The notes below the pieces were generated by a model. It was not told the origin of the DNA. It made no database searches and was given only the letters and a program-made list of their open reading frames with translations. Of a stretch of 64,000 nt of DNA, positions 11,285 to 61,754 are shown in pieces. Origin of the DNA: a virus; IMG/VR virus record IMGVR_UViG_3300033273_000374, positions 64,001-128,000 of that record, one strand, 5' to 3'. The number at the start of each line of letters is the position of its first letter. Position 1 is the stretch's first letter. A program made the position numbers and the translations under genes.

Positions 11285-11814
11285 GGTTTATAGATTGCTA
11301 TAAAAATATCTACATGTTTATAATGTTGTACCCATTGTAACATATGCTTCTGCCCAAAGTCAAGTATTAATTGATTTTGTTCTTGGATGCGTTGTTTCAT
11401 TCCAGCATCATCCTCGTACCAGTCATAGTTAGGATAGGTTATATCAAAACCACCTGCTTGCTTCCACCAATCAAAACTTGCTTCGTTGGGCCTATAAATT
11501 AGCTGAATCCATGCAGTAGGGTATCTTGCTATGATCTCATCAAAGTGGTAAGGCCATTCGTGACTCATAAGCAATTTGCATCCTGCATCCTGTGTAAATG
11601 GGCTGTCCAAATTAGCTTTGTCTAAACTGGTGTCAAACTCCATGCCTGTGCCAAAGTATGCATCACAGTGTCCGCTGTATTCTCCATGTTTGTAAATGCG
11701 ATGATCAGCTCTGTCTGAGGTGTTGTATGCACTGTCAAGTTTTATTTCTTGTGCAATACCACTCCAACGTGATCCTGGCACACCTGTAAAAAATATATAT
11801 TCTGGAAGTTTCAT
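11281..11814 (-). CDS. P-loop, sulfotransferase-like protein
   Basis: 177 residues from ATG 11814. FFTGVPGSRWSGIAQEI resembles the PAPS-binding loop of sulfotransferases, and WIQLIYRPNEASFDWWKQAGGF resembles the later 3'-phosphate binding strand and helix. The frame extends upstream to 11850, but a late promoter (11823-11830) occupies that stretch, so ATG 11814 is the better start and would give a nearly leaderless mRNA. It overlaps the next gene by 4 bp. Confidence 0.6.
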   Translation of the reverse strand: MKLPEYIFFTGVPGSRWSGIAQEIKLDSAYNTSDRADHRIYKHGEYSGHCDAYFGTGMEFDTSLDKANLDSPFTQDAGCKLLMSHEWPYHFDEIIARYPTAWIQLIYRPNEASFDWWKQAGGFDITYPNYDWYEDDAGMKQRIQEQNQLILDFGQKHMLQWVQHYKHVDIFIAIYKP

Positions 11815-28180: not shown

Positions 28181-28256
28181 TGGTGACCCCTACGGGACTC
28201 GAACCCGTGTTTCTGCCGTGAAAGGGCAGCGTCCTAGACCGCTAGACGAAGGGGCC
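28181..28256 (-). tRNA. tRNA-Glu (TTC)
   Basis: A 76-nt cloverleaf with encoded CCA. Acceptor GGCCCCT pairs with AGGGGTC, anticodon loop CTTTCAC gives TTC and the T loop is TTCGAGT. Its 5' end overlaps the last 15 bp of the radical SAM gene, whose stop codon lies inside the tRNA. Confidence 0.95.
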
Positions 28257-29624
28257 GGTGATTTCAGGAAGGTAATCCTGCAATTTGATATTTCTATTTA
28301 CGTCTAATTTATTGTTAAATTCAAAAAACATTTTCAATACATTGTAATCAATATCGTTATTTCTAACAGTGTCAAGTATGTGGTTTACACATGTGTTAAA
28401 ATTATGATCAGTTTTGTAACTAGACGTTGACACTAATTTTTCACAGTCTGTGATTACTGCAGTTTTGTTTGGGTGATTTCCAAACCACAAGTATGATGGT
28501 TCATCTACCCAGTTAATTAATACAGTGGCATTTGGATATTGTGTGTTTAAATAGTTAACCAATGGATATAGCCTAGCTACATTGTATATACTTACACTTA
28601 TATTGAAACAAACCACCCATTGACTGTTAAGTGTACGGACGTTTTTGGCTAGTTTATTCCAAGTTATTGGATAGCGTATGTAATACAGTGCATCTGCAAA
28701 TCCATCAACACTTACAATAAACTCAACATTAGTAAAGTGTTTAATTACATCCAAAAACTTTTTAGGTAAAACAAAGGCATTTGTGTTTATCTGCAATAAG
28801 AAATCAGTGCGGTTTTGTTCAATACATTCTTTTAAAAAGTTTATAAATTCATTGCTTATAACAGGCTCGCCTCCTGCAACATACAAACGTTTTACATTTG
28901 GTATATCTACAATTGCAAAATCTGTTGGAGGCGATAGTCCAACAAGAGTGTCTGTTAAGCCTAGGTTGTAAAACTCTTTGTCTAACATATGGCTATCGCC
29001 CGGGCAACAAATTCTGCACTGTGCATTACATCTATTGCCTGTGCGAATATCATAGTCTAACACAGTAGTGTTATCAATAAATTGCTCAACACTGCGAAAA
29101 CCTGTAAGTTCTACCATTTGTTTTGTTCTATGTTGACGTGGACTAGGTAAACTAGCAGTTTCTCGTGTGGTGCAAATTTCACAATGTGCAACAGGATTGC
29201 CTGCAATCATGTCCTGCCTAATACCATTCATTATATCATTGTTGTAGTTAAAACTTTTTGTTGTAAGCAGTTTGTTTTGATAGCAACAAAATCTGTATGC
29301 TTCTCCATCATGGTTTTGCACTAGAGCACCAAATGCTGCACCACAAAAACTTTTGTTTTCTTCAAGGTATTGCATCACAGGGTGCTGGCCTATGCTGGAC
29401 AAAAAAGCAGGATCAGCACTGTCAAGTTCAATCAACTGTGCATCACTTGCTATGTCAAGTAGTTCTTGACTAGTTATATCATAATGACTGGTATGATATA
29501 CACCTGCTTGTATTTTTGTGTGTGCATCGAGCACTCCACAATATTCTAAATTGTGACTATGTGCAATAGTTTGTGCAGAATAACCGGCTTGTTCACTGCC
29601 GTCACCTATACAAATTATTAGCAT
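28242..29624 (-). CDS. Radical SAM enzyme with extra Cys clusters
   Basis: 460 residues. The radical SAM motif C199-x3-C203-x2-C206 (RCNAQCRICC) and AGGEP (about 250-254) are clear. Before it lie C113-C114 and C148-x2-C151 (HCEIC), possible auxiliary-cluster ligands, as in SPASM/twitch peptide-modifying enzymes. The N-terminal 100 residues (IICIGDGSEQAGYSAQTIA) are unlike typical SPASM proteins. The substrate is unknown. An AGGAG site precedes the ATG, and the 3' end runs 15 bp into tRNA-Glu. Confidence 0.85.
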   Translation of the reverse strand: MLIICIGDGSEQAGYSAQTIAHSHNLEYCGVLDAHTKIQAGVYHTSHYDITSQELLDIASDAQLIELDSADPAFLSSIGQHPVMQYLEENKSFCGAAFGALVQNHDGEAYRFCCYQNKLLTTKSFNYNNDIMNGIRQDMIAGNPVAHCEICTTRETASLPSPRQHRTKQMVELTGFRSVEQFIDNTTVLDYDIRTGNRCNAQCRICCPGDSHMLDKEFYNLGLTDTLVGLSPPTDFAIVDIPNVKRLYVAGGEPVISNEFINFLKECIEQNRTDFLLQINTNAFVLPKKFLDVIKHFTNVEFIVSVDGFADALYYIRYPITWNKLAKNVRTLNSQWVVCFNISVSIYNVARLYPLVNYLNTQYPNATVLINWVDEPSYLWFGNHPNKTAVITDCEKLVSTSSYKTDHNFNTCVNHILDTVRNNDIDYNVLKMFFEFNNKLDVNRNIKLQDYLPEITGPFV

Positions 29625-29738
29625 TTATAGTTCTCCTGGGCACCATCCATTCAATTATTTTACCTGTTAAATGGAAAACAGGATTGTATTTAGTGGAAGT
29701 AAGCGAGATTAACTAACCTCTAGACAAAAGGGCTATTA

Positions 29739-29813
29739 TGGCTCCTCAAGATGGATTCGAACCACCGACCGGATGGTTAACAGCCGTCTGCTCTGCCACT
29801 GAGCTACTGAGGA
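29739..29813 (-). tRNA. tRNA-Asn (GTT)
   Basis: A 75-nt cloverleaf with encoded CCA. Acceptor TCCTCAG pairs with TTGAGGA, discriminator G, anticodon loop CTGTTAA gives GTT, T loop TTCGAAT. One A/C mismatch sits in the anticodon stem. Confidence 0.93.
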
Positions 29814-29821
29814 ATAAAACT

Positions 29822-29895
29822 TGGTGGAGAATAGGAGAGTCGAACTCCTGATTCTAGAATGCAAATCTAGCGTGATCCCACTTCACTAATTCCCC
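29822..29895 (-). tRNA. tRNA-Ala (TGC)
   Basis: A 74-nt cloverleaf with encoded CCA. Acceptor GGGGAAT pairs with ATTCTCC and contains the G3:U70 pair that defines alanine tRNAs. Anticodon loop TTTGCAT gives TGC. Confidence 0.92.
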
Positions 29896-29901
29896 ATTGT
29901 G

Positions 29902-30111
29902 TTATGTGTCTAGAGGAAGTTTGCTATGCTCATCAATCAAGGCTATAACTTCATCTAAACTGCCACAGATAATTTTTACACCTGCCCAATCTTCTTCACT
30001 GTTGCGACCACGTGCCTCAACAACGAAACCATTTGTTACACGCCTAACTTCAATGGTTTCATCTACTTTAACAAGGCCTTCTTGTTTAAGGCTGGTTGTG
30101 TTGTGTGACAT
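29902..30111 (-). CDS. Small hypothetical protein, 69 aa
   Basis: Soluble, acidic, beta-alpha-like pattern (VKVDETIEVRRVTNGFVVEARG, in part; LDEVIALIDEHSKL). No family recognised. A perfect late promoter (30122-30129) and a GGAG ribosome site precede the ATG. It is embedded in the tRNA cluster. Confidence 0.7.
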   Translation of the reverse strand: MSHNTTSLKQEGLVKVDETIEVRRVTNGFVVEARGRNSEEDWAGVKIICGSLDEVIALIDEHSKLPLDT

Positions 30112-30121
30112 TCGTTACTCC

Positions 30122-30129
30122 TATTTATA
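30122..30129 (-). promoter_or_regulatory. T4-type late promoter (TATAAATA)
   Basis: A perfect octamer 10 bp upstream of the ATG at 30111; starts immediately downstream of the tRNA-Asp 3' end. Confidence 0.7.
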
Positions 30130-30131
30130 TG

Positions 30132-30207
30132 TGGCGGGAATGACCGGGCTCGAACCGGCGACCTTTGGCGTGACAGGCCAACGCTCTAACCAATTCAGCA
30201 CACACCC
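30132..30207 (-). tRNA. tRNA-Asp (GTC), slightly irregular
   Basis: 76 nt with encoded CCA and the Asp discriminator G. Anticodon loop CTGTCAC gives GTC and the T loop is TTCGAGC. The acceptor GGGTGTG / CATTCCC has a T/T mismatch and a G/T wobble, and only one base joins the acceptor to the D stem. It may be functional but is less perfect than its neighbours. Confidence 0.85.
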
Positions 30208-30215
30208 ACAAATTG

Positions 30216-30293
30216 TGGTCTCGGTGGTAGGATTCGAACCTACGATCTCTTGCTCCCAAAGCAAGCGGATTAACCAGACTTTCCTACACCGAG
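30216..30293 (-). tRNA. tRNA-Pro (TGG)
   Basis: A 78-nt cloverleaf with encoded CCA and a perfect acceptor CTCGGTG / CACCGAG including the C1-G72 pair typical of Pro. Anticodon loop TTTGGGA gives TGG. Confidence 0.94.
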
Positions 30294-30295
30294 TT

Positions 30296-30388
30296 TGGCG
30301 GACAGGGAGGGATTCGAACCCTCGGAACGATTAACCATCGTTCAATGGATTAGCAATCCACCGCCTTCGACCACTCAGCCACCTATCC
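30296..30388 (-). tRNA. tRNA-Ser (GCT)
   Basis: 93 nt with the long variable arm of class II tRNAs. Acceptor GGATAGG / CCTGTCC, discriminator G, anticodon loop TTGCTAA gives GCT, CCA encoded. Confidence 0.94.
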
Positions 30389-30394
30389 TTGTTG

Positions 30395-30553
30395 TTAAGC
30401 CTTTGCTAGACTACGCAAAAGTTTATCTACTGCAGCCTGTGCTGTTTTACGATCTACACCTTCTGTGCGTTGTACAAATGCAACTGCTTTTTCAACACTC
30501 AATCGTAATCCGTATAGTGCTTCGTGTGCGGCATAATCAACATCTACGTGCAT
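30395..30553 (-). CDS. Small hypothetical protein, 52 aa
   Basis: ATG 30553 to TAA 30395, with a GGAGAT ribosome site. The sequence is helical and charged (HEALYGLRLSVEKAVAFVQ; ending RSLAKA). No family recognised. A TTGACA promoter lies upstream at 30580-30608 and the gene ends 7 bp before tRNA-Ser, so the tRNAs downstream may share its transcript. Confidence 0.7.
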   Translation of the reverse strand: MHVDVDYAAHEALYGLRLSVEKAVAFVQRTEGVDRKTAQAAVDKLLRSLAKA

Positions 30554-30579
30554 AACAATCTCCTAATGTTTATTGTATT

Positions 30580-30608
30580 ATAATACAACAGAAAGTAAGA
30601 GATGTCAA
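30580..30608 (-). promoter_or_regulatory. Sigma70-like promoter in the tRNA cluster
   Basis: -35 TTGACA at 30608-30603, -10 TATTAT at 30585-30580, spacer 17 bp. It would transcribe the 52-residue gene and then tRNA-Ser, Pro and Asp. Confidence 0.6.
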
Positions 30609-30618
30609 TAGAAAAATT

Positions 30619-30651
30619 TGGTGCCTGTAGAGAGGATCAAACTCTCACTCA
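30619..30651 (-). pseudogene. 3' fragment of a tRNA-Leu-like gene
   Basis: 33 nt matching the 3' end (T arm, acceptor strand, CCA) of the complete tRNA-Leu that begins 10 bp upstream on the same strand, with about six differences. It has a T stem (GAGAG / CTCTC) and a TACAGGC-A-CCA end but no D arm or anticodon arm. It looks like a partial tandem duplication or the scar of a recombination event. Confidence 0.75.
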
Positions 30652-30660
30652 AAGCAAATA

Positions 30661-30745
30661 TGGTGCCCGTAGAGAGAATTGAACTCCCACTCCGTAAGGA
30701 AACGGTACCTAAAACCGTCGCGTCTACCTATTCCGCCATACGGGC
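30661..30745 (-). tRNA. tRNA-Leu (TAG)
   Basis: 85 nt, class II with a long variable arm, encoded CCA. Acceptor GCCCGTA / TACGGGC, anticodon loop TTTAGGT gives TAG, discriminator A as expected for Leu. Confidence 0.94.
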
Positions 30746-30796
30746 ATGTGTGGTGTGTTTGACCCTAGTATAGTGTGGTTGGCCCTATTAAAATTA

Positions 30797-30873
30797 TGGT
30801 GCTGGTGGAGAGACTCGAACTCCCAACATTCTGATTACAAAACAGACGCTCTACCAATTGGAGCTACACCAGC
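30797..30873 (-). tRNA. tRNA-Thr (TGT)
   Basis: A 77-nt cloverleaf, encoded CCA, acceptor GCTGGTG / CACCAGC, anticodon loop TTTGTAA gives TGT, T loop TTCGAGT. It lies 6 bp downstream of the endolysin stop. Confidence 0.95.
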
Positions 30874-41843: not shown

Positions 41844-42122
41844 ATGGACTTTTTGACTCTAGTAGCAGAGGTAGGCTTCCCAATTGCTGGCGCAATAGCA
41901 GCTGGTATATTTGTGTTTATCACACTAAAGTTTATCCTCGCAGGCGTTACAGACAGCGTAAACACACTTAAAAATATTATTGCACAACTAGATAATAGGG
42001 TGCAAACAATGAACAATGACTTGGTTAAGATTGATACTTTGCTAAGTTATGTGCTTAATGTTCGTCCAAACATTGATCGCATTGCAGCCAATGAAGGCAA
42101 GGAAGATGCAAGGAGAGATTAA
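41844..42122 (+). CDS. Membrane protein with coiled coil (paralogue A)
   Basis: 92 residues: one transmembrane segment (VGFPIAGAIAAGIFVFITLKF), then an amphipathic helix (TLKNIIAQLDNRVQTMNNDL). It shares this plan and the GFPI motif with the gene at 42387. I recall similar small proteins in marine T4-like phages. A role in lysis timing or virion-membrane contact is possible. Confidence 0.7.
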   Translation: MDFLTLVAEVGFPIAGAIAAGIFVFITLKFILAGVTDSVNTLKNIIAQLDNRVQTMNNDLVKIDTLLSYVLNVRPNIDRIAANEGKEDARRD

Positions 42123-42386: not shown

Positions 42387-42722
42387 GTGGAATTGGATAT
42401 CGTAGGAGCGATTAAGGACTATGGATTTCCTATTGTAGCAGCAATGGGAATGGGCTATTTTATTTTCTTCATATGGAAATGGGTAACTGAAACAATTGAT
42501 CCTGTTATAGGTGCGACAATGATGACACTGATTAAGTTGGTTGATCGTGTTCGCATGCTTGACAATGACTTAATCAGACTAAATCAAAAACTTGCAATGG
42601 TACTAGAGTACAAGGAAGAAATTTCTCAAAAACATCCCGAACTGGCTGAGAGTTTAGATAAAGTTCTCAAAGAAAATAGAACACACAGTTCTAGTTTTGA
42701 CAGCACAGGAGCAAACAAATGA
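42387..42722 (+). CDS. Membrane protein with coiled coil (paralogue B), GTG start
   Basis: 111 residues from GTG 42387, preceded by GAGAGGGG. YGFPIVAAMGMGYFIFFIWK is the membrane segment and LIKLVDRVRMLDNDLIRLNQ the helix; both align with paralogue A at 41844. A longer charged tail follows. Function unknown. Confidence 0.7.
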   Translation: MELDIVGAIKDYGFPIVAAMGMGYFIFFIWKWVTETIDPVIGATMMTLIKLVDRVRMLDNDLIRLNQKLAMVLEYKEEISQKHPELAESLDKVLKENRTHSSSFDSTGANK

Positions 42723-42880
42723 GTAATTTTACCAGTTGGCTTGACCAACAAAACTCAGCTACACAAGCATATTTTAGACAACATCCTGTATGGAGCAACG
42801 AACACATGTATTTTGGGATTAGTTGTGGTTTTGTATGTGGTGTACTTGTAACTTGGTTACTGATGTCTATTTTGAAGTAG
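42719..42880 (+). CDS. Small membrane protein, 53 aa
   Basis: ATG 42719 overlaps the upstream stop as ATGA. Polar N-terminal half (WLDQQNSATQAYFRQHPVW) and one C-terminal transmembrane helix (ISCGFVCGVLVTWLLMSIL). The 3' end overlaps the convergent cyclase gene by 14 bp. Function unknown. Confidence 0.65.
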   Translation: MSNFTSWLDQQNSATQAYFRQHPVWSNEHMYFGISCGFVCGVLVTWLLMSILK

Positions 42881-44879
42881 CGTGGTATACGCCTGACCAA
42901 TCTGCAGGTTTTCCAGCACTCATACGCTCAGTCATTTTGTCATAATACTCAGACATACTAGGTGCTGCTGACTTGTATTTTTCTACGTCACGGAACACTA
43001 CATCCCATTTGCCTGCATAATAGTTTTTGAGGAATTCCTTGTGCTGCTTGGTTTCTTTGTGCAGTGTGTAAATGCGCAGAGGAAGTTCTTTACCTTTAAC
43101 GGCAATATTATCTAACTCCCACCAATCAAAATCATCACTGGTCGCAGCAACAGTGTCTGGTCCTGCGATCATTAGCACACCATAACTTTTTGTTTGTGAT
43201 TCTAATCGTGCTGCTACACTAACTGGATCTCCCAAACAGTCATAGCCCATTTTACGGTCACTGCCAATGTTGCCCACAAGTATTAGTCCTGTGTTTATAC
43301 CTGCACCCATTCCAACCGGAGGCTTGCCGTCCTGTGCTAGTTCAAGATTAAATTGTTCAACTGCATCCAGCATGTCTTTGATTGTGCGCACACCATCATA
43401 GGCATGACGCTCATTGTCTAAAGGTGCACCGTGTATGTGCATACTAGCATCACCAATAAACTTGATAAGTGTGCCATTGTTATCAAGCACAGGGTTGGCA
43501 ATAGCAGTCATATAGCGATTCATTACAGTTGTAAATCCTTCAACGTCTGCACCATAACTTTCGCCAAGTCCTGTGAAGTTGCGCATGTCAGTCATTACAC
43601 AAGTGAGCATTTTTTCTTCGCCGCCCAGTCGTATTAGGCTTGGATCTTTTTGCAGTTGTTCAACCACTGTTGGATTTACATATGTTCCAAACTGCTTTTT
43701 GATCTGTTGCTTTTGGAAAAACTCTAATACAAATCTGTTGAACACTGCATGGAAGCCTGTGAGCACAGTTGTAACAAGTGGCATAGTGCCATCAATCAAA
43801 AACAGTTTGGTTGTCCAAGCATAGTAAGGTGCATATATTACACCTCCTGCAAACACAAGTATTGCGCCGCCTACAAACCAATATGGTGTAAAACGTGCAA
43901 GAATGACCAATAACAATCCTAGTATGCCTGTTGCTGCTAGTTCAGCGATGTTGCCCCACCATGGACGTGTGATTTGATCACCGTCTATCATAGTTTGCAG
44001 TGTGATTGCTGTTGGAATAAAACTAAACTTTTCACCTACAGGTGTTGCAACCAGTGTGGTTGTGCCTGCTGCAGTGGGTGCAATTATGACTGTGCGTCCA
44101 GCAAACGAACTAAAGTCATCATTGGCAGCACTGATTGTTTCAAAGTCTTTGTTGTAACGTAACCATATTCTAGTAAATGGATCTGTGTTAACAATAGGAT
44201 ATCCAGGTATGCGGATCTTTTCAACACCTGCTGGAGAACTTTTGATTTGATAACTTGGTGCACCTGTTGCAACACGAATAACTTCTACAGCCAATGAAGG
44301 ATATGTTTCTTCACCAATACGCATTATAAGAGGAACACGACGCACAACACCATCAATTTCAGATGCAGTGTTGGCAACACCAACACCTGGTGCGTTCAAC
44401 CCTAACAGTGGAATAGGACCTAACATACCATCCCATTCGTATAGGAAAGGCAATGGGTCACCTATTTTAGCAACACCACGTGGTACACCATTACGGTTTA
44501 TGTCTGTGCTGCCTGTTTGTGCAATAACAATTGCATTATCAACCAGTGCTTCTGCAAGTGCTTGGTCACCACCCAATCTATCTTCTTCACTCATTATAAC
44601 TGGTAGCACAATAACGCCTGCACCCTGTTCGCGCAACTTCCAAATTATGTCTGCCAGTTGACTACGATTCCAAGGCCATTGGCCATACTTTTCTATTGCT
44701 GCTTCGTCTATAGCAACAACGCCAATGTCTTTGCTTGTTTGTGGAGTATCTGTTTGTTGTAGTAAATCAAACTGTTTGAGTCTGAGTGTTTCTACTACTG
44801 TGCTGTCTTGATAGTGTACAAACAGTAGCAGCAACGCTGTGATTGCTGCTACTGTCCAGTGTGTGATTACTTTAAACAT
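42867..44879 (-). CDS. CHASE2-domain adenylate cyclase
   Basis: 670 residues. It would make cAMP from ATP in the host cytoplasm in response to a periplasmic signal. An N-terminal helix (about 10-24), a CHASE2 sensor (about 30-305) and three helices (about 312-385) precede a class III cyclase (about 422-610). Metal Asp431 (TDMRNFT) and Asp477 (KFIGDA) and both adenine-specifying residues, Lys473 and Asp547 (YDCLG), are present. Arg558 is kept, but the transition-state Asn is Ser554 (DPVSVAARLE). It is the last gene of the curli-like operon. Confidence 0.92.
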   Translation of the reverse strand: MFKVITHWTVAAITALLLLFVHYQDSTVVETLRLKQFDLLQQTDTPQTSKDIGVVAIDEAAIEKYGQWPWNRSQLADIIWKLREQGAGVIVLPVIMSEEDRLGGDQALAEALVDNAIVIAQTGSTDINRNGVPRGVAKIGDPLPFLYEWDGMLGPIPLLGLNAPGVGVANTASEIDGVVRRVPLIMRIGEETYPSLAVEVIRVATGAPSYQIKSSPAGVEKIRIPGYPIVNTDPFTRIWLRYNKDFETISAANDDFSSFAGRTVIIAPTAAGTTTLVATPVGEKFSFIPTAITLQTMIDGDQITRPWWGNIAELAATGILGLLLVILARFTPYWFVGGAILVFAGGVIYAPYYAWTTKLFLIDGTMPLVTTVLTGFHAVFNRFVLEFFQKQQIKKQFGTYVNPTVVEQLQKDPSLIRLGGEEKMLTCVMTDMRNFTGLGESYGADVEGFTTVMNRYMTAIANPVLDNNGTLIKFIGDASMHIHGAPLDNERHAYDGVRTIKDMLDAVEQFNLELAQDGKPPVGMGAGINTGLILVGNIGSDRKMGYDCLGDPVSVAARLESQTKSYGVLMIAGPDTVAATSDDFDWWELDNIAVKGKELPLRIYTLHKETKQHKEFLKNYYAGKWDVVFRDVEKYKSAAPSMSEYYDKMTERMSAGKPADWSGVYHATSK

Positions 44880-44889
44880 ACACTATTTA

Positions 44890-46914
44890 CTAGAATTTGA
44901 TGTTAATCCCTGCTGTAATTGAATTGCTTGAACCAAGATCAGTTTGTATTCTTGAAGCATTGACACCAATTGTACTACCATTATCCATAACAGTCTTGTT
45001 AATACCAACTGATGCTTCTGTTGTTCCATCTGTGTGATATAAACCAGTTATATCAACTAAATCAAATAGATTTGCAGTTGCACCAAATGTACCATAGTTG
45101 TACATGTCAGTATCGCCTGCAACAGTTCTTGCACTTTGTATTGATCCTGTTTCTGCGTATCCATCTAGTTTGGTGCGTCCTACTGTATACCCAACAATCG
45201 GTTGTATGATATAACCTTTTGCTTTGAACTGTAGGTTTACACTTGAATCTGTGCCACTGGTTGCTGCACTGTTATTGAAGTCACCAATGGTTCTAAGTGA
45301 TGTATAATCAGTCATAGCGTGAGTTGCTTTTAGAACAATATCAGCATTTGGAAAACTTTTACCAACCTTTAATTGTCCTGCACGAGTTGTTGCACTAGCA
45401 CGATCAGCACCATTTTTAATTTTGGTTTCAACTGCTGCAAAACCTGCACCAATGATAATACCACTTTCAGTTACTTTGGTTCCGCCTGCGGTAAAACCTT
45501 TACTGTCACCTTTCATGCCATTGTCAAACTTGTTCTTTTTACCAATAGCAGTAACACCATTAAAGTCAAGTCCTTTGATAGTGGCACTTACACTATCTTG
45601 CGCAGTTGCAATCTGATCAATGCGTCCTGTAAATGAACCAGGATCAGTTACAGTTGTTACGCTGTCATTGCGAACTACAGTCGTGCTTGTGCTTTCGCCA
45701 TCTGTAACAGTTTCACTACCATCACTATATGTTGTAGTTGTGCGATCAAAACTTGTAGTTGTTACATTAACTGGTGTTGTAACAGTTGTAGTTTTTTCTC
45801 TAGCAATAGTTTGTATAGCACCTGCTTCACTTGCTTCGTGGTGTGTAATGCTTGCTGTTAGTACAGGAAGTGTAGTACTTGTTGCTTCACTAGTGCTAGT
45901 AATAGTTTCTGTAGTTGTGCTAACAACTGTAGGTGTTGTACTACCAGTTGCACCACTTTCTGCTGCATCAGTAGCACTACCAACGTCCGACACTGTTCCC
46001 CAACTGTCTGTGGTTGTAGTGTCACCGCCACCAGCGCCGCCGTCAACAGCATCTTCTGCTGCATCAAATGCGCTTGGACCAAAAATGTATGCGTAACTTG
46101 CTGTTAGGATATCACCTGAGCTAACGCCTGTCCATGTCCAACTAATACCAATAGTATCGTCGCCGTTGCCGTATAATACATTGTTACCATCTGCGTCTGT
46201 ATAGTTTGTTCCGTTGTATGCATCAGCATCTGTTTCCCAACCATTGATACCTGCTGTTACGTTTGTATCTGTTGTGTAGATACCAAGTGCATAGCGGCTT
46301 TCAGTTGCTTCACTAAATGCAAGGTTTGTGCTTGGAATAACACCGTAGCCTAGCACGTTATCTGTGCTAGAACTGTCGCCAGGCATACCTTGGCTGTCTG
46401 GGTCAATGAACTTACCAAAACTTACACTGTCTGCATCTACACTCATTGTTATTGAACTTGTAACATCAATAAATGGCGTATTGTCTGCAAGACTGTAACT
46501 ATTGGTGATATCAAAAACACTTGATACTCCACCGGTCCAACTTAGTGTGTCAGTACCATCTGTAAGTCCATTACCATCGCCTGTAATACCTGTACTACCT
46601 GTGTTGTTGTTTGTGTAGTTAGTACCATCTACCTTAACACTAAAACCATCAAATGGTGATCCTGGTGTTAGATAGTCATAACTTGAATTAAATGTTCCTG
46701 TTCCATTTGGATCAAAAAGTAGTCCTGGGCTTGTGTTGCCCCCGGAACCAAATGTTCCCGTGTTACCGTTCACACCTGCTTTGACCCATTCGTTTTCAAG
46801 CACACCCATACCTGTTGCGGTTGTGCTCATACTACTAGTATCAGCCAACGATACGGTGGTCAGGCTGGTACTAGCAAGTAACGTCGCTAAAAGCGACACT
46901 TGCATGATTTTCAT
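44890..46914 (-). CDS. Putative outer-membrane beta-barrel surface protein
   Basis: 674 residues from ATG 46914, with a signal peptide (VSLLATLLASTSLTTVSLA). Residues 30-290 are Gly/Asn/Asp/Thr-rich beta sequence, then a Thr/Ser-rich linker (about 300-420). The C-terminal 230 residues alternate polar and hydrophobic residues and end in NIKF, the terminal-Phe signature of outer-membrane barrels. The plan resembles an autotransporter. It lies between a curlin-like gene and the cyclase (10-bp gap). Confidence 0.7.
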   Translation of the reverse strand: MKIMQVSLLATLLASTSLTTVSLADTSSMSTTATGMGVLENEWVKAGVNGNTGTFGSGGNTSPGLLFDPNGTGTFNSSYDYLTPGSPFDGFSVKVDGTNYTNNNTGSTGITGDGNGLTDGTDTLSWTGGVSSVFDITNSYSLADNTPFIDVTSSITMSVDADSVSFGKFIDPDSQGMPGDSSSTDNVLGYGVIPSTNLAFSEATESRYALGIYTTDTNVTAGINGWETDADAYNGTNYTDADGNNVLYGNGDDTIGISWTWTGVSSGDILTASYAYIFGPSAFDAAEDAVDGGAGGGDTTTTDSWGTVSDVGSATDAAESGATGSTTPTVVSTTTETITSTSEATSTTLPVLTASITHHEASEAGAIQTIAREKTTTVTTPVNVTTTSFDRTTTTYSDGSETVTDGESTSTTVVRNDSVTTVTDPGSFTGRIDQIATAQDSVSATIKGLDFNGVTAIGKKNKFDNGMKGDSKGFTAGGTKVTESGIIIGAGFAAVETKIKNGADRASATTRAGQLKVGKSFPNADIVLKATHAMTDYTSLRTIGDFNNSAATSGTDSSVNLQFKAKGYIIQPIVGYTVGRTKLDGYAETGSIQSARTVAGDTDMYNYGTFGATANLFDLVDITGLYHTDGTTEASVGINKTVMDNGSTIGVNASRIQTDLGSSNSITAGINIKF

Positions 46915-47041
46915 GTTCAATCTCTCTCTTCTTCCCTATCTCAGAGTGATTGAAAAAAAAACTATTTTATTTTTTAAGAGGTTATAAATTGAATGTTGGT
47001 ATGTTCCAGGATACGTCGCCTCTTATGCTTCGACTGTGTAT

Positions 47042-47380
47042 TTAGTTTTGTGTTACAGTTACTGAACATCCACCTTGCGTAGTGCAATATTGAGTTACTG
47101 TTGCACTAAAATTATCACCATTTTGGTAAACGTTAGTAGTTGTTGGTTGTGTTCCTGTTTGTTCTATTGTAAAAGTGTTATAATTGCCATCTTGTACTAC
47201 ATTAACTGTATTATAATTACCATTGACATAAACATCTAAATCGTTGTCTTGCCCATTTTTTTGTATAAGAGATAGTTCTATGCTATCTCCGTATGCCTCT
47301 AAGAATATATCATTGGCCCACACACTACCACCAAATAGTATTAGAACGATGCTACTGCTTTTGACGAATCGTGATAACAT
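47042..47380 (-). CDS. Curlin-repeat protein (CsgA/CsgB-like, short)
   Basis: 112 residues. Signal peptide (SSIVLILFGGSVWA), then curlin-type repeats of the S-x5-Q-x-G-x2-N kind: LSLIQKNGQDNDLDVYVNG, VVQDGNYNTFTIEQTG and NVYQNGDNFSATV. Curlins polymerise into amyloid fibres outside the cell after export through CsgG. It ends VTVTQN, and its start overlaps the end of the FecR-domain gene by 29 bp. A minor or nucleating subunit (CsgB role) is plausible. Confidence 0.8.
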   Translation of the reverse strand: MLSRFVKSSSIVLILFGGSVWANDIFLEAYGDSIELSLIQKNGQDNDLDVYVNGNYNTVNVVQDGNYNTFTIEQTGTQPTTTNVYQNGDNFSATVTQYCTTQGGCSVTVTQN

Positions 47381-48479
47381 TGTTTGGTGCTGCTCCTGTG
47401 TCTAAACTCAATGTATAGTTCTCAATTATACTACCATTTTGATCAATGTTAAGTGTATAATCATAACTTTGACTTAAGGTTAATCTAATATAGTTGCCTG
47501 TGCCATCATCACGTATGACCACAAAGTCTGGATCTTGATTGAGTATTGAAATGTTTTTGTCTGCTTTGTAGCCAAATATTTCCTCTTTGGCAATGTCTGC
47601 AAATTCGCTTTTTAAAAGTGCTGCTAGTTCAGCGTTGCTGCGATCTAGTGCATCAAACAAAAACTCCAATGCCAATGGATCATAATCTAATTCTGTATAC
47701 CAAGTTTCTTTTTCGTCAATACCCAGTAAATCTTGATCCAATCCATCAAACTCTAAAAAATCTAAACCCAATACATCTACTAAATCATTGACTCTTGCTC
47801 GTTCTTCTTCTTCATCTATATATACTGGTTTGCGTACAATAATCAAATTGCTAATAAATGTTTCATCTGGATCTAACAGCAAGGGTCTCTGTGGAGCCGA
47901 ATCAACGGCGGAAACGGTAGTGGCTTGGAAGGCTTGGTTGAGAACTACCTGTCCCACATCCGACTCCACAGAGATTTCTCCAACTGTACACAGAGCTTTG
48001 CTCCCTATTTGTGTACAACTGGGTAACAGTATGACAGTACTTTGACCAATCTCATCAACACTCATACTAAAGTCTGTGCCTCGCACAGCAATAGTTGCAG
48101 TGGGAGTTCTGATCTTAATGTTCTGTCTTGAATTCTTTGCTATTTGACCACTGGCATATCTCACAGTGCCAAGTGCTGCTTTGATACTAAGAGCACCAGT
48201 CTTAGTATTAGGATCGTAAACAAACTCGTCTATGAGCAGTTTACTGTGTTCAGTGACATCCACTCTTGTGTCATCAACAAACTGTATTGAAGTACGACCT
48301 CTTGCTGTTTTAACAGTATCATAACTTTCTACATCTGTGCCTTTGTCCACCGTCAAAGCCTCGCCTCCTTTGCGTTCAATCATGGTATTGCCCTTTTGTT
48401 CAATAACATCACCTATAGAGGCAAGGCTTTGCGTGGTTGAGAGAACTAACAATGCTAGGGTTATGAATACTTTATACAT
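47352..48479 (-). CDS. FecR-domain periplasmic protein
   Basis: 375 residues, signal peptide 1-20. Residues 25-150 form a FecR domain (VESYDTVKTARGRTSIQFVD; TPTATIAVRGTDFSMSV). The acidic C-terminal region (about 215-290) and the final LDTGAAPNNVITIRQ, rich in curlin-like Q/N strands, are unusual. FecR domains usually act in signalling or bind extracellular polymers. Lying between two curlin genes, it may bind fibre subunits or sense them for the cyclase. Confidence 0.82.
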   Translation of the reverse strand: MYKVFITLALLVLSTTQSLASIGDVIEQKGNTMIERKGGEALTVDKGTDVESYDTVKTARGRTSIQFVDDTRVDVTEHSKLLIDEFVYDPNTKTGALSIKAALGTVRYASGQIAKNSRQNIKIRTPTATIAVRGTDFSMSVDEIGQSTVILLPSCTQIGSKALCTVGEISVESDVGQVVLNQAFQATTVSAVDSAPQRPLLLDPDETFISNLIIVRKPVYIDEEEERARVNDLVDVLGLDFLEFDGLDQDLLGIDEKETWYTELDYDPLALEFLFDALDRSNAELAALLKSEFADIAKEEIFGYKADKNISILNQDPDFVVIRDDGTGNYIRLTLSQSYDYTLNIDQNGSIIENYTLSLDTGAAPNNVITIRQKQ

Positions 48480-48481
48480 TG

Positions 48482-49201
48482 TTAGTCGCTCTGTGTTATA
48501 TCAACATCAAAACTATCACCATTGATGGTTAGGTCAACAGTATTGTCATAGACACCACTTTGTGTGATATCAACAGTACCGCCGCCACCGGTGACATCTA
48601 AGTCAATGGTATGTCCTGCACTATCACCGTTGCCGTCTACATCGATTGTAACTGCAACACCTTCGTCGCTGTTTGCACTTGTTGTTGCTAGACTTGAACT
48701 GTTGTCAACAGCCACTGTGATATTAGCATTGGTACCATCTAAACTGGTGTTGATAATGTTGTTGTCGCCTGTGACTGTAAATGCCACAGTCGCACTATCA
48801 GCATCACTGGTTTCACCAATGTTGATTGTGTAATCGTTGTCACTACCGGTGTTTGTTACATTAAGTGTAACAGTATCACAGTTTCCTGCGGCTGAGCTAC
48901 TACACAACAATGCAATACTGTTGCTGTCACCTGTAATACTCCAAGTACCTGTGTAGGTTGCTCCTTTGATGGTTGCTGCTATGGTATTGTAACTACCTGT
49001 TTGGGTAATTGCAAATGTCATATTATCACCATTTAAGGTTACACCTGTAGTTGAAGTTCCGATTACGTTGTCCTGTCCATCTTGTGTGATATCTAAGTCC
49101 AAACTATCGCCACTTTGCGTAATGTATATGTCATTAGCAAATGTGACAGTTGCAAAAAATAGAATACTCAAGACAGCGAACAATTCTACTGCGCTTCTCA
49201 T
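48482..49201 (-). CDS. Curlin-repeat protein (CsgA-like, long)
   Basis: 239 residues. Signal peptide (ELFAVLSILFFATVTFA), then DIYITQSGDSLDLDITQDGQ and many further D/Q/N-G-N strands (MTFAITQTGSYNTIAATIKG; VDITQSGVYDNTVDLTING). This is the Q-x-G-x2-N curlin pattern, in about eight degenerate copies. It should be the main fibre subunit. It follows csgG with a 4-bp ATGA overlap and precedes the FecR gene by 2 bp. Confidence 0.82.
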   Translation of the reverse strand: MRSAVELFAVLSILFFATVTFANDIYITQSGDSLDLDITQDGQDNVIGTSTTGVTLNGDNMTFAITQTGSYNTIAATIKGATYTGTWSITGDSNSIALLCSSSAAGNCDTVTLNVTNTGSDNDYTINIGETSDADSATVAFTVTGDNNIINTSLDGTNANITVAVDNSSSLATTSANSDEGVAVTIDVDGNGDSAGHTIDLDVTGGGGTVDITQSGVYDNTVDLTINGDSFDVDITQSD

Positions 49202-50043
49202 TTTTTCTCTCCTGCAGTATTAGGCTTACCGTTAGGATAATATCCTATGACCTTGTTGCCATAGTATTTTCCTTTGAATTTCCAGAAGCCTTTAATTTCT
49301 CCCTGTTTTACTAGTTCTGCAACCGCTGCCTCGATTGCTGCTTTTACTGCATAACTAGTAGGTTCATTCACTGCATACCCTGCCTCAACCTCCAGGGCTT
49401 TAGTACCTAAATCAAGGAACCTAAATACATCTCCGCCAGTGCTATGGCTGAGAATTGTTTTTTGTGTGAGTACAGTGAGCAATATCTCACCTGTTTGCAC
49501 ACTTACAATGCGCATGGCTATTGTAATCTGATCTACTCTATATTGTGTGTTGGCACCAATGCCAAAGTACCTAGCACCAATACCACCTGATTGTGTGTTG
49601 CTGTCATACCCAACAACACCACCATCGATGAGCAGTCCAGCGTATTTTAATGCTTTGAGAGGACTTTTACCATCATTAAAGGTTTCTGCTGTACTGCGTA
49701 TGAGTTGTCGTTCTTTTGTAAGATTTTGTAGTCCACCACGTTCTAGCACTGTGAACCACGTTTCATTGCCTATGTTTTTTAAGGCCTCTATAACATAAAC
49801 TTCACTGCCTTGTGTAACAGCACTGCTCAGTTGACTAAAACGTTCGTTGGGTTTACGCTGTCCAGTTTTGTCTGTAAACTCGTAAACAGCAATAGGAATT
49901 TTTGGGCCATCTAGTTCTGGAATTTCTGCTATCACAGGAACAGGGGCTGGTGCTAGTTCGGGTTGTTTGTTCACGTCATTGTGTGCACCGCATCCTGCAA
50001 GTGCCAGACCAATGACGATGATTGGTAAAAGACGCTTGAACAT
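49198..50043 (-). CDS. csgG: Curli secretion channel CsgG
   Basis: 281 residues, full length (E. coli 277). The lipobox LAGC (Cys at 18) anchors it in the outer membrane, where nine subunits form the curlin export pore. Family segments are very clear: IAVYEFTDKTGQRKPNERFS, VLERGGLQNLTKERQLIR, GIGARYFGIGANTQYRVDQI, TKTILS-like TQKTILSHS and GYAVNEPTS. Upstream is csgF (3-bp gap), downstream curlin genes. It allows curlin secretion if CsgE-like help is not needed or is host-supplied. Confidence 0.95.
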   Translation of the reverse strand: MFKRLLPIIVIGLALAGCGAHNDVNKQPELAPAPVPVIAEIPELDGPKIPIAVYEFTDKTGQRKPNERFSQLSSAVTQGSEVYVIEALKNIGNETWFTVLERGGLQNLTKERQLIRSTAETFNDGKSPLKALKYAGLLIDGGVVGYDSNTQSGGIGARYFGIGANTQYRVDQITIAMRIVSVQTGEILLTVLTQKTILSHSTGGDVFRFLDLGTKALEVEAGYAVNEPTSYAVKAAIEAAVAELVKQGEIKGFWKFKGKYYGNKVIGYYPNGKPNTAGEKK

Positions 50044-50046
50044 TGT

Positions 50047-50493
50047 TTAAAATCCAAACCCTGACAGTGGAACTGTAAGTTCAGTCACTGTGCCATCTGC
50101 TTCTAAAATAGAAACTGTAATGGTGTCGGATGTTATGTCTTTGACCCAGTTAATGGTAGCACCTTCAATTTCTGCAGTGCCACTTGTAGCACCATCTTCT
50201 GTAAACATACCATCAACGAGACTTTTACTGATGTTAGCGTAGATTCTACTTTCCACGTTCTTAAGAAATTTTGCTAGTGTAGAATTCTCAGCTTCACGCT
50301 CTTCTTGACGCAATGCTGCTTCTTCTTTTTCTATTATTTCTTTTTTACGTGTGGTTTGTAATTGATCTATAGCAAGCACATGGTTACTGTAACCATTGCC
50401 GCTGAATGCAGGGTTCTTAAATCCAAACGTTACTTCGCTTGCTTGTGCCTGTCCAAATGCAAATACCCCCAACAATACAATGAGATATTTCAT
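50047..50493 (-). CDS. csgF: Curli assembly factor CsgF
   Basis: 148 residues, near the E. coli length of 138. Signal peptide ending AQA-S at about 18, then VTFGFKNPAFSGNGYSNHVL, the conserved CsgF N-terminus that plugs into the CsgG pore. A helical middle and C-terminal strand DTITVSILEADGTVTELTV follow. CsgF couples secretion to nucleation at the cell surface. First gene of the operon, with a GGAGAGGG site and a structured leader. Confidence 0.9.
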   Translation of the reverse strand: MKYLIVLLGVFAFGQAQASEVTFGFKNPAFSGNGYSNHVLAIDQLQTTRKKEIIEKEEAALRQEEREAENSTLAKFLKNVESRIYANISKSLVDGMFTEDGATSGTAEIEGATINWVKDITSDTITVSILEADGTVTELTVPLSGFGF

Positions 50494-50700: not shown

Positions 50701-51786
50701 TTATTGAATTTTGGCTTTGTTGAGTGTGAGTTGAGCCCATTGCTCACGTCCAGCACCTGCTTGTGTTGGAACAATACTGATGCTGGTAGCATTGGCATGT
50801 CCACTGTTTCTAAATGCTGTAAGGTCTGCTGCATTCTTGATCATGCCTGATTTTAGATTTGGGAAGCTGATTAATAAAAGTGCATCAAAATCATCTCTGT
50901 CTTTATACCATGCAAAGTTTTGTTCTAGATATGCTTTTTCAATTACACCAGGATCTTCACTGTTTGCTATAGCATCAGCAACAGGTCCTGTAAAGCCTTC
51001 CATGTCCATTGTTAACAATTCAGTAGCAATCTGTTTGCGCAACTGTTTGTTTTCTGCAGCATTAGGTCCTGATATGGGTAAGTCTGCATTAAGTCCGTTA
51101 ATAAAACCTGAAAAACCTAAACTGCCACCTGTGCCGCCAATGTTTGCTACAACAGTTGGAATACGAGCTGCAAATTTATCTATCACATTACGTTTTGCTT
51201 TTTGTGAGCCACCACCATACCCAATGCGTCCACCTGCACTACCAAGTGCTGCTTTGAGTTCTACCTTGCCTATGCCGTCAATTTCTAAGTCACCTTCGCC
51301 ACTTGCAAGGCGTATTTTGTTACTGAGCATGGCAAGTGCAAACTCACCTGGGCCTTTTTGTTTTACACCTACTCCATAACGTGCAAGAGCAGTGAATGCT
51401 TTTACAGCAATTGGGTCGTTGTCAAATACAGCATTGAGGCTAGACAAAGGTTTGCTAAGAGCACCTATGTTTACAACACCGCCACCTTCTAGCCTTTTAA
51501 GGAATGCATTTAAACTTTTGTAGTCACTGTCTAGACCTGCAATGATCTTTGTTACTTCTTGTCTGTGTCTAGCAAGCTCTTGTTGGTTCATGTTTTCATC
51601 TGCACTAGGTGGTGTAAGTGCAGTTTCAATGTTTGCGCCAATTGTGCCTGTGTTTAGCAGTTTGTAGATACGATCCAACAGGGCAGCATCATCTGCATTA
51701 TCAGCACTGAGGCCAGAAATTTTAGCAATAATGTTTTGCTTTTCTTGTTCTAGATTGTCGTATTCAAACAGGTGCTTTAGTAACAT
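50701..51786 (-). CDS. Hypothetical protein, possible virion-packaged protein
   Basis: 361 residues. No motif recognised; Gly-rich middle (GGRIGYGGGSQKAKRN; NIGGTGGSLGFSGF). The N-terminus MLLKHLFE resembles that of the metallopeptidase at 58676 (MLLRELTE) and could be a shared targeting signal. A late promoter (51794-51800) ends 7 bp from its ATG. Confidence 0.7.
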   Translation of the reverse strand: MLLKHLFEYDNLEQEKQNIIAKISGLSADNADDAALLDRIYKLLNTGTIGANIETALTPPSADENMNQQELARHRQEVTKIIAGLDSDYKSLNAFLKRLEGGGVVNIGALSKPLSSLNAVFDNDPIAVKAFTALARYGVGVKQKGPGEFALAMLSNKIRLASGEGDLEIDGIGKVELKAALGSAGGRIGYGGGSQKAKRNVIDKFAARIPTVVANIGGTGGSLGFSGFINGLNADLPISGPNAAENKQLRKQIATELLTMDMEGFTGPVADAIANSEDPGVIEKAYLEQNFAWYKDRDDFDALLLISFPNLKSGMIKNAADLTAFRNSGHANATSISIVPTQAGAGREQWAQLTLNKAKIQ

Positions 51787-51792
51787 AGTATG

Positions 51793-52491
51793 TTATTTAT
51801 CGAGAATCTCAAACGTAGGCCAACTGTAAAAATTGATTTGATCTCGACTGTGTTCTGTGCGTGTGCCAACAACTGTGATTGTGTTTTGTATTAGGCTCTG
51901 CCAGATGTTGCGAAATGGATTGTCCATGTCCATTTCAATTAGGTTTGCTCTGTTATTTTCGTCTTCAAACCAATAGCACAAATATTCTTTTCTGTCTTTG
52001 CTTTTGCTTATGCGTCTTGTTTTTTTGACATGCATACCTAAGAATGTAAGCAATGAACGTGTATCACGTGGACGTGTTGTTTGCAATTGTTTGTTAGTAA
52101 ATTCTTCAGTGTTGCACTGATACTTGATATCTTCTAGTGTTTTATCTTCCATGTACATTCTCGGTAGACTCATCAATTGTCTTATTTCAGTGGTAACATA
52201 TGTTTGTTTATTTTCGCTCAACAGTGCCAGCAGATCACGTCTAAAGGTGGTGTTTAACACACCCTTTATGCTATACATCATGTATTTGTTTTTATAAAAC
52301 TTACGTATCTCTTTTGCTTGGTAAACAAAGTCAGGCATTTCCATGTCATGATGTTCGCACAATTGGTTACTTGCTTCATTATCAAATATCATACGTGCTG
52401 GTTCTAAATCTAAATAGTGCATCAGCAGTGCAACTGCAATTGGATCGTAATCGTATTCACCGGGTTGACTGTTTAGGTCAAACAGCATCAT
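51793..52491 (-). CDS. Hypothetical protein, 232 aa
   Basis: Soluble, Lys/Arg/Met-rich, with FDLNSQPGEYDYDPIAVALL at the N-terminus and a Lys-rich middle (HVKKTRRISKSKDRKEY). No family recognised; ATG 52488 is an alternative start. It overlaps the end of guaC by 4 bp and shares its early-type transcript. Confidence 0.7.
   Translation of the reverse strand: MMLFDLNSQPGEYDYDPIAVALLMHYLDLEPARMIFDNEASNQLCEHHDMEMPDFVYQAKEIRKFYKNKYMMYSIKGVLNTTFRRDLLALLSENKQTYVTTEIRQLMSLPRMYMEDKTLEDIKYQCNTEEFTNKQLQTTRPRDTRSLLTFLGMHVKKTRRISKSKDRKEYLCYWFEDENNRANLIEMDMDNPFRNIWQSLIQNTITVVGTRTEHSRDQINFYSWPTFEILDK
51794..51800 (-). promoter_or_regulatory. T4-type late promoter (ATAAATA)
   Basis: GATAAATA, 7 bp from the ATG at 51786 and overlapping the stop of the upstream gene; predicted mRNA nearly leaderless. 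Confidence 0.65.
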
Positions 52492-53573
52492 TCAAAAATC
52501 CTGTTGTGTGTATCTACACACCTAATAAATGTTGCGCACTTAGGCAGATGTTTTAGTTTTGCAGCACCTACATATGTACAACTACTTCGCACACCTCCCA
52601 ATAGATCTTGTACTGTTTTTGCAATATTACCCTTGAAAGGCACTAGTACTTCTCTACCTTCGCTGCTACGGTAATCTTTGAGACCGCCAAAGTGTTTTTT
52701 ATTAGCAGCATCAGAACTCATTCCATAGAACTGTACAAACTGCTTTCTCTCAATGACATTCTTTTCAGTGTCTTTGTCAATTTCGTTGGTTTGATAAAAT
52801 TTAGTAATTACTTCTCCGCCGCCTTCGAGGTGTCCTGCGAGCATTCCTCCGAGCATGACGAAGTCTGCACCGCCCGCAAATGCCTTAGCAACATCGCCAG
52901 GGCAAGTACAACCACCATCTGCAATAATGTGACCTCCCAAGCCGTGGGCGGCATCAGCGCACTCAATGACAGCAGATAACTGAGGATAACCCACGCCAGT
53001 TTGAATACGAGTAGTACATACACTACCGGGACCAATACCAACTTTAACAATGTCTGCTCCTCTTAGTATAAGTTCTTGTGTTTGGTCTGCTGTTACAACA
53101 TTACCTGCAATGATTGTAATCTTAGGATACTCTTCGCGAAATTGTGCAACAAAATTTAAGAAGCGTTCACTGTAGCCATTTGCTACATCAATGCACACAT
53201 ATTTTATGCTACGTGTACCTGCGTTAACTGCACGGAACTTTGCAGCATCTTCGTCTGTGATACCCATACTGTATGCTGCGTATTCTGCCCTTTGCGGGTG
53301 AAATTCCGTAAAAAAATCTACCAGTTCTGCAATACTGTAGGTTTTAACCAAACAGGTAAACAGTCCTAGTTTGCCCAATTCATCTGCTATTTCAAACGTA
53401 CCAACACCATCCATGTTTGCTGCCATGATTGGAATACGTTCAAATGTTTGTGTGCTGTTTCTAAATGAGTGCATGCGTTCTAATCGCACTTCTTTGCGTG
53501 AACTGAGTGTGCTACGTTTTGGGCGTAAAAGCACGCCACTGTAATCTAGTTTTACATCCTGTTCTATGTTCAT
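52488..53573 (-). CDS. guaC: GMP reductase
   Basis: 361 residues (E. coli GuaC 347). It converts GMP to IMP and ammonia with NADPH. Catalytic Cys186 lies in GIGPGSVCTTR at the same number as in E. coli, and GGCTCPGDVAKAFAGGADFV, MLGGMLAGH and FYGMSS are family segments. No CBS domain is present, and the sequence is closer to GuaC than to IMP dehydrogenase. In a phage it could rebalance purines from degraded host nucleic acid. Promoter at 53597-53625. Confidence 0.93.
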   Translation of the reverse strand: MNIEQDVKLDYSGVLLRPKRSTLSSRKEVRLERMHSFRNSTQTFERIPIMAANMDGVGTFEIADELGKLGLFTCLVKTYSIAELVDFFTEFHPQRAEYAAYSMGITDEDAAKFRAVNAGTRSIKYVCIDVANGYSERFLNFVAQFREEYPKITIIAGNVVTADQTQELILRGADIVKVGIGPGSVCTTRIQTGVGYPQLSAVIECADAAHGLGGHIIADGGCTCPGDVAKAFAGGADFVMLGGMLAGHLEGGGEVITKFYQTNEIDKDTEKNVIERKQFVQFYGMSSDAANKKHFGGLKDYRSSEGREVLVPFKGNIAKTVQDLLGGVRSSCTYVGAAKLKHLPKCATFIRCVDTHNRIFE

Positions 53574-61396: not shown

Positions 61397-61416
61397 ATTT
61401 GAAACTCCTCTAATGG

Positions 61417-61424
61417 TATTTATA
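61417..61424 (-). promoter_or_regulatory. T4-type late promoter (TATAAATA)
   Basis: A perfect octamer 20 bp upstream of the ATG at 61396. Confidence 0.7.
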
Positions 61425-61427
61425 AAG

Positions 61428-61452
61428 AAAAAGCACCCATTAAGGGTGCTTT
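61428..61452 (-). terminator. Intrinsic terminator of the tmRNA gene
   Basis: AAAGCACCC / GGGTGCTTT, nine pairs with a five-base loop; the 3' arm runs into five T on the minus strand. Confidence 0.9.
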
Positions 61453-61718
61453 AGGTGCCGGATTCTGTTTCGAGGCTCCGGCGGGCCCAGTGGATTATGC
61501 CGCTAAAGGCATATCCTCATCTGCAAAATTATCGTTTGCGTTTGTTTTGTTTGCTTGATTTACGGTCATCGCCTACCGGTAACTCCACGTTCTCTATTGC
61601 ATCAGTCGATCCCTATCACCCCCTCAAAGCACACTCAGCGAATGTGTTTTAAGTGAATGGTGGAGGTGGGGAGAATTGAACTCCCGTCCTGCCTGCCGTC
61701 AATTGGCTTCAACGTTAC
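61430..61718 (-). ncRNA. ssrA: Circularly permuted two-piece tmRNA
   Basis: The tRNA 3' part comes first: T arm GGGAG-TTCAATT-CTCCC, acceptor CACCTCC, A, CCA ending at 61658. After a 34-nt spacer (61624-61657) the coding piece begins at 61623 with GGGGGTG, which pairs with CACCTCC through a G3:U70 alanine pair. The tag frame ends TAA at 61495-61497 and encodes ANDNFADEDMPLAA (or five residues more if the first GCA, 61554, is the resume codon). The order is that of alphaproteobacterial permuted tmRNAs. It rescues stalled ribosomes and tags proteins for Clp proteases. Late promoter at 61724-61731, terminator at 61428. Confidence 0.93.
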
Positions 61719-61723
61719 AAGTA

Positions 61724-61731
61724 TATTTATA
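61724..61731 (-). promoter_or_regulatory. T4-type late promoter of the tmRNA
   Basis: A perfect TATAAATA; the start point would be near 61718, giving a precursor of about 290 nt. Confidence 0.7.
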
Positions 61732-61754
61732 GCAGATAATTACATCTTAGTCAA

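Follow-up and report, generated by a model that had tools for sequence, protein, structure and literature searches.

The 64-kb stretch of viral DNA analyzed here (the window) comprises positions 64001 to 128000 of the 202,913-base record IMGVR_UViG_3300033273_000374, and it carries a seven-gene operon on the minus strand (window positions 42867 to 50493) in which a phage-encoded curli, or type VIII, secretion system (T8SS) is combined with a FecR-domain protein, a CHASE2 nucleotide cyclase, and a predicted type Va autotransporter. On balance, we lean toward the view that the FecR protein and the cyclase are an envelope-signaling pair and that the operon wires the export of surface amyloid and adhesin to a cyclic AMP (cAMP) switch. 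The operon is real, well conserved, and largely published already; what is new is its autotransporter variant and the hints regarding FecR and the cyclase. csgF, csgG, and a curli cluster were described in pelagimyophages by Zaragoza-Solas et al. in 2020 (PMC7029224), as the first-pass annotation of this DNA had noted, and a Bacteroidetes T4-like virus has curli genes together with surface proteins (PMC7198788). The same annotation took the presence of FecR and a cyclase alongside the curli genes to be unreported. Such novelty is ruled out by the literature, since CsgF, CsgG, CsgA/B, FecR, a second CsgA/B, and an adenylate cyclase were reported in podophage- and myophage-type pelagiphages in 2022, with data on the global distribution and expression of the module (PMC9599517), and phages HTVC008M and Melnitz both carry it.

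All seven of the predicted open reading frames (ORFs) were found on the one strand, and Pfam assigned families to all except a gene previously described as encoding a surface barrel. csgF (50047 to 50493; Pfam CsgF, 5e-14) encodes a predicted secreted accessory factor of the CsgG pore and is followed by csgG (49198 to 50043; Pfam CsgG, 2e-52), by curlin-1 (48482 to 49201; Pfam Curlin_rpt, 7e-5, above the cutoff), which encodes a predicted secreted curlin-repeat protein of 239 residues, by the FecR-domain gene (47352 to 48479; Pfam FecR [PF04773], 2e-10), and by curlin-2 (47042 to 47380; Pfam Curlin_rpt, 3e-5, above the cutoff), which encodes a short curlin-repeat protein. The last two genes encode the autotransporter-like protein (44890 to 46920) and a protein with a CHASE2 domain, a transmembrane region, and a class III nucleotide cyclase domain (42867 to 44879; Pfam CHASE2, 5e-40, and Guanylate_cyc, 3e-14). 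The intergenic distances from csgF to the cyclase gene are +3, −4, +2, −29, +121, and +10 bases, the widest lying between curlin-2 and the barrel gene and the last between the barrel gene and the cyclase gene. The tight packing proposed for csgF through the short curlin, with gaps of at most a few bases, holds for the first three junctions and fails for FecR and curlin-2, which overlap by 29 bases. A search for T4-like late promoters near csgF found none, and with 8 occurrences against an expected 4.6, TATAAATA shows no enrichment in the window.

An 18-sequence profile of CsgG, the outer membrane lipoprotein pore of the T8SS, matched the solved Escherichia coli CsgG at 5e-69 over 266 positions, and the lipobox cysteine (Cys18) is invariant. 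CsgF keeps an N-terminal F-x-NP-x-F-x-G segment, in which F, P, F, and G are invariant in three phages, and it could be aligned with the N terminus of E. coli CsgF, but below the threshold (E = 0.05). Only one or two repeats per curlin were scored by Pfam, and the NCBIfam matches of curlin-2 (CsgB, 3e-8; CsgA, 3e-7) were both below the cutoff. Curlin-1 is conserved in length in alignments with HTVC008M and Melnitz; curlin-2 ranges from about 110 to 500 residues among phages, nearly all of which have a C-terminal Cys pair, and in the window it carries this conserved Cys-x5-Cys hairpin ahead of a VTVTQN end. A PA14 domain above the Pfam cutoff forms the N terminus of curlin-2 in HTVC008M and two other phages, and genes with PA14 followed by curlin repeats lie at 10079 to 11404 in locus L002, 11631 to 12935 in L018, and 11664 to 12956 in L040. 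This domain suggests that curlin-2 may form a ligand-binding tip.

A CsgG profile search of viral contigs gave 310 relatives, and the best 80 were examined, so the following counts describe the closest relatives, and the pattern may differ for phage csgG genes that are less closely related. FecR was present in 56 of 56 loci with at least 2.2 kb downstream of csgG, and the cyclase was present in 40 of 40 loci with at least 6 kb. After redundancy removal at 90%, each was found in 22 of 22 loci with at least 6 kb downstream, and the recurrence of the same order in all of these nonredundant loci far exceeds chance. No relative with enough downstream sequence had csgG without FecR or the cyclase, the arrangement that the first-pass annotation had named as speaking against its proposal. 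The order csgF-csgG-curlin-FecR-curlin-cyclase is that of the pelagiphage T8SS module (PMC9599517), and HTVC008M (KC465899) shares it, with CsgG, FecR, and cyclase proteins that are 46 to 55% identical to those of the window. Melnitz, a Methylophilales phage (MZ577097; PMC9004378), likewise has the six genes in order, with a cyclase that is 51% identical over its full length and, like that of the window, has Ser in place of the transition-state Asn. The window differs from HTVC008M and the pelagiphage module by the autotransporter inserted between curlin-2 and the cyclase, and from HTVC008M also by a curlin-2 of just 112 residues that lacks PA14 and by a cyclase with Ser instead of Asn, while Melnitz has no autotransporter and a longer curlin-2 (338 residues).

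In the CsgG tree, the window protein falls within a phage clade that holds HTVC008M and Melnitz (27-row branch, 96/91), which gives it common descent with the pelagiphage T8SS modules. The terminase of the window phage is nearest to those of PA5oct-like jumbo phages (54% identical) and not to those of pelagimyophages. Because the terminase is PA5oct-like but CsgG belongs to the HTVC008M and Melnitz clade, a transfer of the module between unrelated phages is probable, which extends the cross-family exchange already proposed (PMC9599517). A link to pelagimyophages is borne out for the operon and not for the phage itself. A search for Gp23 gave no match in any sequence and was hence uninformative.

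The autotransporter is a new addition to the curli operon; the main text of PMC9599517 makes no mention of one. The gene had no Pfam or PHROG match, and its ORF opens at a TTG (46920) with an in-frame ATG at 46914. An AlphaFold2 (AF2) model made from eight relatives had a low overall confidence (predicted local distance difference test [pLDDT] score of 56) and a well-predicted C-terminal part, consisting of a helix (residues 434 to 449) and twelve strands (456 to 673), for which the best Foldseek match in the PDB was the NalP translocator domain (6e-9), with EstA, AaaA, BrkA, AIDA-I, Hbp, and EspP also among the matches. A cyanophage homologue carries an autotransporter annotation. With a signal peptide read from the sequence, a passenger of about 400 residues, the helix, and a 12-strand C-terminal barrel ending in Phe, the modeled protein has the features of type Va autotransporters such as NalP, EstA, and AaaA and refines the surface barrel of the earlier prediction, but unlike those proteins, it is phage encoded and sits inside a curli operon. 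A profile search with this protein found 57 viral contigs. csgG was nearby in 20 of the 29 loci with full flanks, and the cyclase was present as well in 19 of those 20. The usual site is between curlin-2 and the cyclase; two loci have the gene between csgF and csgG (L233, 6428 to 12279; L235, 1636 to 6467), and four other contigs with both csgG and the autotransporter are larger than 200 kb (L206, L209, L229, and L230). On the CsgG tree, phages with the autotransporter fall into more than one group, supported branches force at least five changes, and the gene therefore enters and leaves the operon, of which it is a recurrent, optional member.

The FecR protein consists, in its AF2 model, of a signal peptide, a FecR domain (about residues 23 to 190), and, behind a flexible linker, a C-terminal beta region whose last strand (NVITIRQKQ) is curlin-like. 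The nearest Foldseek match of the FecR domain was the cell-surface signaling domain of PupR (6e-4). The motif N/D/S-x-I/V-x-I/V/L-x-Q ends 38 of 38 nonredundant phage FecR proteins, compared with 1.4% of shuffled ends and 5 of 603 other ORFs, where the shuffles gauge the rarity of a motif drawn up after the ends had been inspected and do not test a prior hypothesis. When profiles were compared with hhalign, the last 70 residues of FecR matched the curlin-2 end with 81% probability over 42 columns, other operon domains did not exceed 0.5% with that target, and the FecR end gave no alignment with curlin-1 (1%). The C-terminal ends of the three proteins predicted to be exported are alike (DITQSD, TIRQKQ, and TVTQN). 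This curlin-like end is missing in FecR proteins located beside CHASE2 cyclases outside curli loci, which have quite different C termini.

The cyclase belongs to the phage family phrog_35576 (1.7e-215). Five of the six class III adenylate cyclase residues (the two metal-binding Asp residues, Lys, the adenine-site Asp, and Arg) are present, and the sixth, the transition-state Asn, is replaced by Ser (GDPVSVAAR). In a partly redundant set of 54 phage cyclases, the five residues are kept in all 54, and Ser replaces Asn in 42, including that of the window. The three chromosomal FecR-type cyclases described below have the Asn, as do 20 of 22 alphaproteobacterial cyclases from outside curli loci, with one Gln and one gap in the remaining two. 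Some phages (L002, L037, L055, and similar loci) have a shorter second form, of about 620 residues, of the same CHASE2 protein kind and with the canonical Asn, so that the catalytic domain appears to have been exchanged or to have diverged. We regard CHASE2 as a control domain, since Sinorhizobium meliloti CyaD1 without CHASE2 makes cAMP constitutively (PMC5498481).

FecR and the CHASE2 cyclase are a general bacterial pair. With flanks of about 6 kb considered, a FecR-domain gene was found within about 3 kb in 12 of 20 alphaproteobacterial CHASE2-cyclase loci without csgG (L259 to L278), compared with 0 of 64 canonical curli control loci (921 kb). Clustering of FecR and CHASE2 has also been seen in Campylobacterota, where a single pathway was suggested (PMC9239204). 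Like the phage operon, the bacterial pair has a class III CHASE2 cyclase beside a predicted secreted FecR-domain protein, but unlike it, there are no curli genes and no curlin-like FecR end. Canonical curli loci, such as E. coli csg and the alphaproteobacterial csgFG-curlin loci, share with the window the CsgG and CsgF families and curlin repeats, but those retrieved here have many-repeat curlins, no FecR, and no cyclase, and a 100/96 branch of the CsgG tree parts their CsgGs from all FecR-type CsgGs. The phage operon therefore has the appearance of a curli exporter combined with the bacterial FecR-CHASE2 pair.

The 80 loci from a CsgG scan of genomes were of two kinds, canonical alphaproteobacterial loci, which lack FecR and the cyclase, and FecR-cyclase loci, most of the latter on short contigs of metagenome-assembled genomes (MAGs) or on phage contigs. 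Loci that were short or had phage genes such as uvsX (L093 to L099, L111, L141, L144, L162, and L163) were counted as phage or ambiguous and not as bacterial. Three FecR-cyclase loci have bacterial flanks, namely, those of Hyphomonas TMED17 (a 705-kb contig with TonB plug, ALO, FAA hydrolase, and 2OG oxygenase genes) and of two Caulobacteraceae MAGs (glycosyltransferase, S9 peptidase, and amidohydrolase genes). These three bacterial contigs with the full operon contradict the abstract of PMC9599517, which states that FecR and the cyclase are not found within bacterial T8SS operons. Such bacterial operons are rare; a single genome among 299 from that order has this FecR family. The Caulobacteraceae FecR copies have a curlin-like end (NVTQD), which is lacking in the copy from Hyphomonas. 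Being unrooted, the CsgG tree gives no direction for the transfer between bacteria and phages.

If the operon works as we propose, CsgG and CsgF would make a pore in the outer membrane of the host during infection, and the two curlins would pass through it and assemble into surface amyloid. Curlin-2, which varies and sometimes bears a lectin, would serve as tip or linker. The autotransporter would show a second, adhesin-like passenger. By its curlin-like end, the FecR protein could touch the fiber or its subunits, and CHASE2 could sense the state of FecR in the periplasm and adjust the cAMP made inside the cell. The infected cell would in this way acquire a new surface that is sticky and shields it, and its cAMP level would be linked to export, with whatever benefit this may bring to the phage. 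In its most specific form, this circuit would have FecR as a fiber-docked sensor that tells CHASE2 the state of curli export, an outside-in cAMP signal tuned down by the Asn-to-Ser change, and the autotransporter as a second adhesin; we put this forward tentatively and consider it rather unlikely in all its parts.

Several observations weigh against amyloid export coupled to cAMP. The curlins have few repeats, and these have diverged. Infections with Melnitz, which has the same operon, showed no clumping (PMC9004378). CsgE, which sets E. coli csg apart from the window, had no match across the whole 203-kb record in a search that matched the E. coli control, in line with the first-pass annotation. 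It is not needed for T8SS membership, since the pelagiphage modules lack CsgE, and the alphaproteobacterial ones lack CsgC, CsgD, and CsgE (PMC9599517). The C-terminal model of FecR is only moderately confident (pLDDT of about 50 to 80), and since no curli structure was among its Foldseek matches, it is the comparison of sequences and profiles that supports a curlin-like end. Loss of the transition-state Asn cuts turnover strongly in class III cyclases, and the window cyclase may thus be weak or inactive, although conservation of the five other catalytic residues argues against simple decay. No cyclic nucleotide-binding protein (cAMP receptor) was found in the 203-kb record, which is possibly a fragment. 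The first pass was right in its reading of phage-borne curli export genes, a CHASE2 cyclase, and a surface barrel. The coupling of amyloid export to cAMP that it suggested is plausible but is weakened on the cAMP side by the replaced Asn and the lack of a receptor gene.

The same components have been given other roles. For Melnitz, modeled CsgGF and synteny led to the proposal of a lysis pore (PMC9004378), and a CsgG/CsgF channel for lysis timing, comparable to a secretin or pinholin and not exporting fibers, would fit the two paralogous small proteins (PHROG 18771; 41844 to 42122 and 42387 to 42722, plus strand) encoded just beyond, and convergent with, the cyclase gene, which are holin-like, one of them weakly so (phrog_4898 holin; E = 0.0025). 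However, a bare lysis pore would have no use for the curlins, FecR, and cyclase that are always kept with it, the CsgF segment that lines the CsgG neck in E. coli is retained, and two proteins of the Melnitz operon are annotated as curlin-repeat proteins in GenBank, contrary to the statement in the paper that csgA and csgB are missing; we find this role improbable. Still less probable is that FecR is an iron-citrate regulator and the open CsgG pore takes up nutrients (siderophores or cobalamin) during infection, as PMC9599517 allows by naming the FecR domain in that way and listing import among its options. FecR regulators of the standard type contain an anti-sigma domain and work with a sigma factor. 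Here, PF04773 was the sole Pfam match in the protein, with no anti-sigma domain matched and just a signal peptide ahead of the FecR domain in the model, no sigma-70 region 2 was found in the 203-kb record, and the C terminus is curlin-like. The protein accordingly lacks the cytoplasmic anti-sigma domain and partner extracytoplasmic function sigma factor of FecI/FecR systems, and we rejected its assignment to them.

A third alternative is that the operon masks the infected cell against superinfection or protists instead of promoting adhesion or aggregation. This is one of the options in PMC9599517, it involves the same anatomy, and the variable curlin-2 and passenger domains would suit a change of surface. 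PA14 on some curlin-2 proteins suits binding better than plain masking, without excluding the latter, and we consider masking doubtful but a good deal more credible than a lysis or import pore.

The surroundings of the operon differ from those of the podophage modules, in which a histidine kinase gene precedes csgF (PMC9599517); none was seen here, and the ORF directly upstream of csgF (50701 to 51786, minus strand; 361 residues) had no Pfam, PHROG, or NCBIfam match. Farther upstream on the minus strand are a GMP reductase/IMPDH-like gene (52488 to 53573), most similar to copies from large phages such as XacN1, and a transfer-messenger RNA (tmRNA) gene (61404 to 61752) of the Rfam permuted, two-piece family (110 bits), a type that the window phage has in common with Melnitz. 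The window also has a cluster of eight tRNA genes (28181 to 30873, minus strand) and a tRNA-Trp gene at 14190.

In conclusion, whether phages remodel the surface of the infected cell with amyloid is disputed, with fiber export (PMC9599517) set against a lysis pore (PMC9004378), and the comparative facts favor export with signaling, because FecR and the cyclase are constant companions of csgG in the loci examined, the curlin-like FecR end is confined to curli operons, and the autotransporter is recurrent. The label of iron regulator is thereby replaced by the hypothesis of an envelope sensor, which is testable, and such tests are practical with HTVC008M and Melnitz, both of which are in culture.

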